Positions 18,676 to 21,816 of a stretch of 64,000 bases of DNA are shown piece after piece. The notes under the pieces were generated by a model. That model saw only the letters and a list, made by a program, of their open reading frames with translations, did not search any database and was not told the origin of the DNA. A program made the position numbers and the translations under genes. Every line of letters starts with the position of its first letter. Position 1 is the first letter of the stretch. Source of the stretch: an uncultured Saprospiraceae bacterium (GTDB taxonomy: Bacteria; Bacteroidota; Bacteroidia; Chitinophagales; Saprospiraceae); the NCBI GenBank assembly GCA_938028705.1, contig CALIZI010000121.1, positions 1-64,000 of the forward strand, written 5' to 3'.

Positions 18676-19653
18676 TTAAAATGTCGGATGCACAGGCTGA
18701 TTCTCCAATATACCTTCAATTTTCTCCATGATTTCATCCGTCAACAGTGGCAAGACATCCAAAGAAGTCAAAGTTTCTTCCAAGTGATGCGCCTTCGATG
18801 CACCTAAAATGACGGTGCTGACATTCGGATTTTTGGCGCACCATGCGACAGCCATTTTGGGCATCGTTGTACCGATTTCATTGGCGATTTTAGTGAGTTC
18901 GCGTACTTTTATAATGCGGTCTTCGGTCAATGATTTGTCTTTTAGCCATTCCATACCTTCATTGGTCAGGCGTGTGCCTTCGGGGAATTTATCATTATAC
19001 TTACCCGATAAAACACCCGACGCGAGCGGCGACCAAATCGTAGTTCCCAAACCTACCGTCTTGTAAATCTGTGAATACTCGACCTCGAATTTATCGCGGT
19101 GAAACATGTTGTACTGCGGCTGTTCCATCGTTGGTCCGATGAGTCCGTATTTTTCAGCTGCAACATGTGCTTCCATGATTTCTTGTGCGCTCCATTCGGA
19201 CGTTCCCCAATACAAGATTTTGCCTTGCTCTATTAAGGTATTCATTGCGCGGACAGTTTCCTCAATTGGCGTATTTTTATCGGGTCGATGACAAAAATAT
19301 AAGTCCAGATAATCGACCTGCAAACGCTTCAATGCCGCATGACAAGCCTCCGTAATGTGCTTGCGACTCAAGCCACTTTGGTTGGGCAATTTACCGCCCC
19401 AAAATACCTTGCTCGACACCACAAAAGTATCGCGCGACCAACCTGTTTTTTTTAAAATATTGCCCATGACAATTTCCGATTTGCCATGTGCATAGACTTC
19501 GGCATTGTCAAAGAAATTGACTCCGGCATCATACGCCATTATCATGAGTTTTTCGGCTACATCGTCGCCGATTTGTGCGCCAAAGGTCAGCCATGACCCA
19601 AAGGACAAAGTGCTGACTTGTAATCCTGATTTTCCTAATCTTCTGTATTCCAT
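18676..19653 (-). CDS. Aldo/keto reductase, voltage-gated K+ channel beta-subunit-like
   Basis: A 325-aa NADPH-dependent oxidoreductase with a TIM-barrel fold, of the AKR6/Kv-beta-like and YghZ-like group. The catalytic tetrad is visible: D49 and Y54 in FFDNAEVYAHG, K82 in SSKVFWGG, and a His in YFCHRPD. The GLSRKHI stretch and the C-terminal NVSTVILGA cofactor loop are typical. Physiological substrate unknown; relatives reduce methylglyoxal and other aldehydes. Single gene, convergent with the thioesterase. Confidence 0.93.
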   Translation of the reverse strand: MEYRRLGKSGLQVSTLSFGSWLTFGAQIGDDVAEKLMIMAYDAGVNFFDNAEVYAHGKSEIVMGNILKKTGWSRDTFVVSSKVFWGGKLPNQSGLSRKHITEACHAALKRLQVDYLDLYFCHRPDKNTPIEETVRAMNTLIEQGKILYWGTSEWSAQEIMEAHVAAEKYGLIGPTMEQPQYNMFHRDKFEVEYSQIYKTVGLGTTIWSPLASGVLSGKYNDKFPEGTRLTNEGMEWLKDKSLTEDRIIKVRELTKIANEIGTTMPKMAVAWCAKNPNVSTVILGASKAHHLEETLTSLDVLPLLTDEIMEKIEGILENQPVHPTF

Positions 19654-19711: not shown

Positions 19712-20203
19712 TTATAATTTTGCTAATTCTTTTTCTATGAGGTAGAGGGGAACGCGGCAGAGGGGGCGGAATTTGTTGTTGTAGCGTTGTTTCCATTCGG
19801 TTTTTAGTTTTTGGAGTTCGGATTTTTTGATTTTAGGTTTATCCCAAAGACTTCTTTTGATTTGTCTGATTTTCTTTCTGGTTTCTTCGTAAAGTTGGGC
19901 GCGTCTTTCTTGTAAAATTTCTTCATTTAGATTCAAAATCACTTTTAAATCGCGCTTTATTTTTTCGTTATTTGAGGTTATCTCGCCATTTGGCAAATAT
20001 TCTAATTCTTTTATTCTATTGAGATTCAAAGGATTTACGAACAAATCATTCGTTTTGTCAAACCCGGCTTTTGATTTATCGCAAATTAAATTAGCCTTTG
20101 ATTCACCAACTTCTTTTCTGTTAAGGTCGTCAAATGTCGCTCCTTTCTGTTTTTTAAGTTCGGTCAGACAAGTCGATTCTTTGTTTTTTTGTATATGTTT
20201 CAT
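19712..20203 (-). CDS. PtuB-like protein lacking its HNH nuclease core
   Basis: A 163-aa basic protein translated after the ATPase with a 4-bp ATGA overlap. Its N-terminus (MKHIQKNKESTCLTELKKQK, then GATFDDLN) is the kind that opens PtuB/TIGR02646-type HNH nucleases, and residues about 40-115 resemble the segment that follows the HNH core in that family (LICDKSKAG, FVNPLN, YLPNGEITS, INxDL-like IKRDLKVILNLN, EILQERR). The stretch that normally lies between, carrying CxYC and the EH..P of the HNH site, is absent, leaving the two parts joined in frame at about residues 30-40. So either an internal deletion made it nuclease-dead, or it is a naturally shortened variant. Family recognition is from memory and needs a profile check. 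Confidence 0.65.
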   Translation of the reverse strand: MKHIQKNKESTCLTELKKQKGATFDDLNRKEVGESKANLICDKSKAGFDKTNDLFVNPLNLNRIKELEYLPNGEITSNNEKIKRDLKVILNLNEEILQERRAQLYEETRKKIRQIKRSLWDKPKIKKSELQKLKTEWKQRYNNKFRPLCRVPLYLIEKELAKL

Positions 20204-21426
20204 GCTTCGGGAACGTATTCGTCAAATTCAAATTCAAAAGATGTTCTGGCTTTTTGTACGTCTAAGCGATTACCGTATAATTCTTCTAATTTTTTTAATA
20301 ATACTAATGCTTCTTCACGTTTTTCGTCCTTTAATGCGTGATAAAATTCACTGAATTTTTCTTCGCTATGTTTGGGAGCTTTTCTTATTCCAAATATTTT
20401 ATTTAAAATATAATTACTATCCGCCCCATAAATAGAAGGTGTAAACGGCACACGTTTAAAATCCTCAATGATATGCACACTTTCCTTTTTGACATTTGAT
20501 AAGACCTGCGGCGAGTGTGTGGTGACGAGAAATTGTACATTCGGGAATACATGCGTGAGGGCGGGGATGATGTCGCGTTGCCAGGCGGGGTGGAGGTGGA
20601 GGTCGATTTCGTCTATTAGGACTATGGCGGATTCATTTAGGATTTCTTCCGGTTTATTTCCTTTATAATTGACAGTTAGTTTTCGTGCTATATCACCGAC
20701 AACCAATATCGCCATTTTTTCACCATCAGAAAGACTATTAAATTTAAATGGTTTTTCATTTTTTTTAATAAATAAATGAGGACGATAATTGTTTGAGTTT
20801 AATTCTTTATGAATCTCCACATATAAATTCGCATATTTATTCCCCTCTAATTTAGAAAAAAAACATTTGAGTGCCTTTCGCATCGGCATTAATCTTGGGT
20901 TTTGATAATCAAGGTTACTTCTTACTTTTTCTCTATTTTCATTATTTTCTTCATTCACATACCACTCAATTAAGTGATTAAAATTAGATACAAAAAAAGG
21001 TTCTTCACTTACTGCGTTCGGTATGGTATCAAGTCCTTTTAAAGAGCGATTTGTTTCATAATATATAAATTTATTCTTTTGTGGAAGTATATTATCTTTT
21101 ACACTTACTTCAGTAAGAAGCTTCTCATAATTATTAATATCAGGGTCTCCATTTTCTTTCTTCTTAGAGGAAATACACAGTTCTATCTGCTCGTTATCTT
21201 CCGTCTCTTTAAATAACATAGATAAGGACAAAAAAATAGAACCTACTGATAAGTCACTTACATTTGCCCATTTTTCACTATTAAACAACATCCCCACCGC
21301 ATCCAAGACACTAGTCTTCCCCGACCCATTCACGCCCACAAATACATTCACATTCGGATGCAGTTCAAACTCTGTTTTGTCTTTAAATCCGCGAAAACCC
21401 TCTAATGTTAATTTTTGTATTTTCAT
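20200..21426 (-). CDS. PtuA-like AAA ATPase (Septu/retron-type defence)
   Basis: A 408-aa RecF/SMC-like ATPase. Walker A is GVNGSGKTS (residues 31-39), the ABC signature is LSDGEK (232-237), Walker B is IVLIDEIDLHLHP (268-280) and the switch His is H304 in TTHSPQV. The N-terminal LTLEGFRGFKDKTEF opening is typical of AAA_15/AAA_21/AAA_23 ATPases such as PtuA of Septu. In known two-gene Septu and retron-PtuAB systems the ATPase is followed directly by an HNH protein; here the following gene overlaps by 4 bp and looks like that partner with a missing HNH. Start ATG 21426; a perfect hairpin sits 14 bp upstream. Confidence 0.8.
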   Translation of the reverse strand: MKIQKLTLEGFRGFKDKTEFELHPNVNVFVGVNGSGKTSVLDAVGMLFNSEKWANVSDLSVGSIFLSLSMLFKETEDNEQIELCISSKKKENGDPDINNYEKLLTEVSVKDNILPQKNKFIYYETNRSLKGLDTIPNAVSEEPFFVSNFNHLIEWYVNEENNENREKVRSNLDYQNPRLMPMRKALKCFFSKLEGNKYANLYVEIHKELNSNNYRPHLFIKKNEKPFKFNSLSDGEKMAILVVGDIARKLTVNYKGNKPEEILNESAIVLIDEIDLHLHPAWQRDIIPALTHVFPNVQFLVTTHSPQVLSNVKKESVHIIEDFKRVPFTPSIYGADSNYILNKIFGIRKAPKHSEEKFSEFYHALKDEKREEALVLLKKLEELYGNRLDVQKARTSFEFEFDEYVPEA

Positions 21427-21477: not shown

Positions 21478-21569
21478 TATATAAACTTTTGATAATAATT
21501 ATCCGTTGAGCAATTCGTTTATTTTTTTAATAAAAAAATATTATAATATATAATTATTTTAATAATAAT

Positions 21570-21779
21570 TTGACAATGTCATGTTCGATTTTTATTTAAT
21601 GTAGTTGGTATTTTGCTCTTGAATTTGGGCTAAAACTCGTCAGACATTTTCAAAATTCACCGATGATATCATATTTTCCAACAATGTTTAAATGTCAGAC
21701 GAGTTTTAGCCCAAATTCGGAAAAAATATCCCATGTTAAACACAAACATACTTTTATTTTTAAAACATGACATTGTCAA
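21570..21779. repeat. MITE-like element, TTGACAATG family (copy C, complete)
   Basis: Exact 16-bp ends, TTGACAATGTCATGTT at the left and AACATGACATTGTCAA at the right. Internal arms at 21621-21645 and 21694-21718 enclose a 48-bp loop. This is the best preserved copy of the family and defines its length, 210 bp. It fills most of the spacer between the Septu-like operon and the OmpA-family gene. Confidence 0.85.
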
Positions 21780-21816
21780 GATAAAAAACATAATACCTGT
21801 TCAACTGATCAACAAA

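Follow-up and report, generated by a model that had tools for sequence, protein, structure and literature searches.

A Septu-type locus of an uncultured Saprospiraceae bacterium whose PtuB lacks the HNH nuclease centre

The window analysed here, a 64,000-nucleotide stretch of DNA from an uncultured Saprospiraceae bacterium, carries an ATPase gene that overlaps a short ptuB-like gene, and the locus raises the question of whether a PtuB devoid of its nuclease centre is a selected variant of the Septu effector or a product of gene loss. The initial annotation had recognised a PtuA/PtuB pair without an HNH and named early decay as one option, and both points stood; its favoured reading, a selected nuclease-dead subtype, was not supported. 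The relevant features are:

20200–21426, minus strand: ptuA-like ABC-type ATPase gene, 408 aa, motifs intact (open reading frame, PADLOC profile and motif reading)
19712–20203, minus strand: ptuB remnant, 163 aa, with an in-frame deletion of the HNH nuclease (profile and alignment)
20111–20203, minus strand: retained PtuB N-terminus, residues 1–31 (first domain of our own profile, i-E 3.7e-8)
20105–20113, minus strand: approximate deletion join, residues 31–33, give or take a few codons (alignment and profile)
19712–20107, minus strand: retained PtuB C-terminal helical domain, residues 33–163 (own profile and predicted fold)
18676–19653, minus strand: aldo/keto reductase gene, the downstream neighbour, common to the corresponding loci of genomes G004 and G001

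The two reading frames overlap on the minus strand in an ATGA that holds the ptuA stop and the ptuB start. The best PADLOC PtuA match to the 408-aa ATPase was PDLC00271, with residues 1–399 aligned to profile positions 1–413 (E 4e-88). The frame contains no stops, and the Walker A motif (GVNGSGKT, 21313–21336), signature (LSDGE, 20719–20733) and Walker B motif (IVLIDEI, 20605–20625), by which a Septu ATPase is recognised, are all present together with the H-loop (TTHSP), in agreement with the initial annotation. Its relatives of solved structure are the PtuA proteins of Septu and of retrons Ec78/Ec83. Genes for galT, a MORN-repeat protein, an acyl-ACP thioesterase, the aldo/keto reductase, OmpA, SBP_bac_5 and a 3-keto-disaccharide hydrolase lie in the neighbourhood.

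Among same-genus loci, PtuA residues 49–145 (window 20992–21282) are hypervariable, with 18–25% identity in most pairs, whereas residues 1–48 and 231–345 are 72–96% identical; the hypervariable stretch is possibly a trigger-sensing insert. Some 140 bp upstream of ptuA, at window positions 21565–21785, lies an element of ∼210 bp. Its termini are perfect inverted repeats of 16 bp (TTGACAATGTCATGTT), and a further inverted repeat, of 44 bp, lies within it. The genome contains at least 40 copies with 92–97% identity, and the family is MITE-like and recently active.

In order to define what is missing from PtuB, the 163-aa protein was compared with PADLOC PDLC00322 and with a profile that we built from 16 intact PtuB proteins. 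PDLC00322 matched it in pieces only (residues 34–162 to profile positions 92–213, E 2.5e-22). Our own profile gave two matches, of residues 1–31 to model positions 1–31 and of residues 33–162 to positions 92–216 (i-E 3.1e-37), leaving model positions 32–91 absent; in the alignment, every close relative has the CxYC, the E-H and the N of its HNH at these positions. The short protein thus resembles an intact PtuB over ∼31 residues at its start and ∼130 at its end, ∼60–80 central residues being gone, and is 61–80 codons shorter than the intact proteins of G003 and G004. That a protein overlapping ptuA begins and ends like PtuB, with an open frame and no HNH centre, had been read correctly from the sequence, and the alignment confirmed the central gap, which had been expected near residues 30–42; the join was placed at about residues 31–33. 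Since the Pfam HNH model barely detects even the intact relatives, the absence of the domain was read from the alignment and not from a missing Pfam match. The CxxC, H and N of the HNH centre, which a Septu PtuB requires, are absent from the 163-aa frame. The idea that the HNH had moved elsewhere in the window was rejected, as tblastn with three intact HNH regions detected no relocated piece there (best E 0.17). Homology to full-length PtuB beside ptuA therefore covers both ends and not the centre and, judged by its sequence, the locus is Septu-derived and nuclease-less and is not a functional Septu.

The retained C-terminal part was mostly predicted with confidence (residues 101–163, pLDDT about 73–93) as three long helices. 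For the intact PtuB of G003, residues 113–224 could be aligned structurally with residues 102–228 of PtuB in Septu and retron complexes (Z 3.1–7.2, rmsd 3.2–5.2 Å, modest values for a helical domain), and nine of the ten best rows of that comparison were PtuB. As modelled, the part kept in the window is the PtuB C-terminal domain. The HNH part of the intact relative had a low-confidence predicted fold and a shallow alignment. A Foldseek search of the PDB with the 163-aa protein returned nothing below E 4, and a PDB sequence search with it gave only a chance match. Going by their titles alone, PDB entries 9n69 and 9n6b (HNH 'down' and 'up') suggest that the nuclease is mobile and that the remainder of PtuB holds it.

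Is the short form inherited? The closest matches among 60 related genomes are open frames of 218–244 aa, and intact PtuB proteins of the same genus have the pattern CxYC...EIEH...NML. Three loci, G003:C159 (PtuB of 224 aa), G004:C139 (243 aa) and G001:C255 (at least 214 aa; a run of N lies behind the HNH, towards the 3' end), share the gene pair and the ATGA overlap with the window but encode a PtuB with a complete HNH. At G004:C139 and G001:C255, the pair adjoins the aldo/keto reductase gene that also neighbours it in the window, and the HNH reads CAYC...EIEH...LDYxNM. G003:C159 is the closest relative (C-part identity 68–71%) and lies at a different genomic site. A tree of the PtuB C-part groups the window with G003, G004 and G001. 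Because of these intact relatives and their grouping, we consider the short form to be derived, by in-frame loss of about 61–80 codons. The initial annotation had itself named a full HNH in relatives as the finding that would reduce the short form to a deletion mutant only, and this is what the same-genus loci show, two of which lie at the corresponding site.

A wider survey took in 395 genomes at phylum level and 396 at order level besides the 60 relatives. About 56 PtuA/PtuB loci were read in all; motifs were judged by eye and by script, so that counts are approximate. No other genome in this set was found to have a short PtuB of the window type, although recurrence in related genomes is what a subtype would have called for, and a search of viral contigs and plasmids gave no close relative of it. 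A new HNH-less subtype of Septu was rejected on this ground. The HNH frame is kept in about 50 of the 56 loci, and PtuB is broken in six, by six separate lesions (a frameshift, a nonsense mutation, a truncation, a near-complete loss and two in-frame deletions), none common to two loci. Besides the window deletion, these are a frameshift inside the HNH (G005), an in-frame TAG inside a LysM insert (G000:C289), near-complete loss with about 25 codons left (G027), truncation after the first HNH motif (G486) and an in-frame deletion that removes the HNH and leaves a 69-aa frame (G304:C59, L039). The last locus, from another family of the same phylum, resembles the window in its open PtuA frame and in-frame ptuB deletion but differs in that the deletion is larger and ends at a 13-bp direct repeat (TCTGTYACCAAAA, found at the matching deletion ends in intact relatives) and that Walker A is altered (AVLNGGGKT, a glycine being lost); it is a clear relic, and its deletion is an event unrelated to that in the window. 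The PtuB lesions represent scattered loss and not an inherited short form, and six unshared lesions do not suggest a stable nuclease-less type.

The genome itself (G000) has four PtuA-type loci (C121, C354, C419 and C289). PtuB is broken in two of the four; at C354 and C419 it is intact, and the loci look intact. In Saprospira and related genomes, a PtuB subfamily of ∼270–300 aa carries, as an insert, a LysM-like domain that directly follows the HNH and precedes an HCD motif (L058, 1492–2355, minus strand; L059, 1501–2316, plus; L060, 1501–2382, plus; L021, 4286–5185, plus; L022, 4325–5227, plus; and the broken G000:C289 copy L044, 2260–3137). PF01476 scores above its cut-off in L060. Intact in at least five genomes, the subfamily is maintained. 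A LysM domain is odd in a presumably cytoplasmic defence nuclease, and our literature search found no paper joining LysM, HNH and Septu.

We conclude that this is most likely a Septu locus that was recently inactivated by an in-frame deletion of the ptuB HNH, and no new kind of system. A recent deletion with a length divisible by three would explain the open frame, and it would be one event in the general turnover of Septu in this group. Counted against decay is the remainder of the pair, which bears no signs of it: PtuA is stop-free with intact motifs, the window tip branch in the PtuB C-part tree does not exceed that of intact G003 in length (0.19 versus 0.26), and dN/dS between the two C-parts is ∼0.12, with dS close to saturation. 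The same picture would be expected of a short protein kept by selection. The unaccelerated rate may reflect a recent deletion or a C-terminal helical domain still under constraint, two readings that one genome per species does not separate. The dN/dS values were set aside as uninformative on selection since the deletion, dS being 1–2 or saturated and PtuA residues 49–145 hypervariable.

Retention of the C-terminal domain, mostly predicted with confidence, its unaccelerated rate and the two further loci with intact PtuB would also fit a maintained nuclease-dead variant, in which the short PtuB docks on PtuA as a regulator or dominant-negative, or PtuA uses in trans the nuclease of another Septu locus. 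However, no relative surveyed was found to share the short form, the other PtuA proteins of the genome are only 33–39% identical to that of the window over the matched part, which makes subunit exchange doubtful, and PtuB has been lost in other genomes through lesions of several kinds, as would be expected of decay; we regard this variant as unlikely. It appears most improbable that selection has preserved the 163-aa protein, since the loss of its HNH, as a functional partner of PtuA that works without a nuclease (as regulator, decoy or dominant-negative). Alternatively, the contig could merge two alleles or skip a stretch, the organism's ptuB being full. In favour of this, the assembly is a draft in 483 contigs, metagenome bins are the source of the named same-genus relatives, and PtuB is a mosaic, its N-terminus being nearer to G004 and its C-part nearer to G003. 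Since the contig is 79 kb long, the join is exactly in frame and stop-free, and no separate ptuB of the window type turned up in the rest of the genome, for which the search listed C121 and C354 only, such an artefact is very unlikely.

Compared with known Septu systems (PDLC00271, PDLC00322; E. coli PtuAB, PDB 8eea), the window shares a full-length PtuA, the gene order and the PtuB N-terminus and C-terminal domain but lacks the nuclease domain. The PtuAB effector of type I-A retrons (Ec78/Eco7, Ec83; NF041760, NF041761) belongs to the same ATPase and nuclease families, and the C-terminal domain of the intact relative aligns with retron-complex PtuB (Z up to 7.2); unlike that effector, the window proteins fall below the NCBIfam cut-offs (200 of 500 and 33 of 150 bits) and the HNH is missing. 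No reverse transcriptase, which a type I-A retron would include, was found among the neighbours (15–27 kb). In a working system, PtuA would serve as ATPase sensor and scaffold, the PtuB C-terminal domain would dock the nuclease onto it, and the activated HNH would cut nucleic acid, tRNA-Tyr or phage DNA in the systems studied. In Septu EcB88, substitutions of PtuB H75 or N91 abolish immunity, as do PtuA Walker mutants (PMC13096335), and in retron-Eco7 neither PtuA alone nor PtuB alone is toxic (PMC11555353). In view of these published effects of PtuB H and N substitutions, the window copy is predicted to be inactive: with the docking part probably kept and the nuclease lost, it would form at most a nuclease-dead PtuA/PtuB particle and should confer neither immunity nor toxicity.

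An open frame beside an intact ATPase is thus insufficient to call an active Septu, and profile scanners still score the window PtuB despite the loss of its nuclease. Were the short form selected, nuclease-independent functions of PtuA would be indicated. The rough frequency of nuclease loss, about 6 of 56 Septu loci, is consistent with a fast turnover of defence genes.
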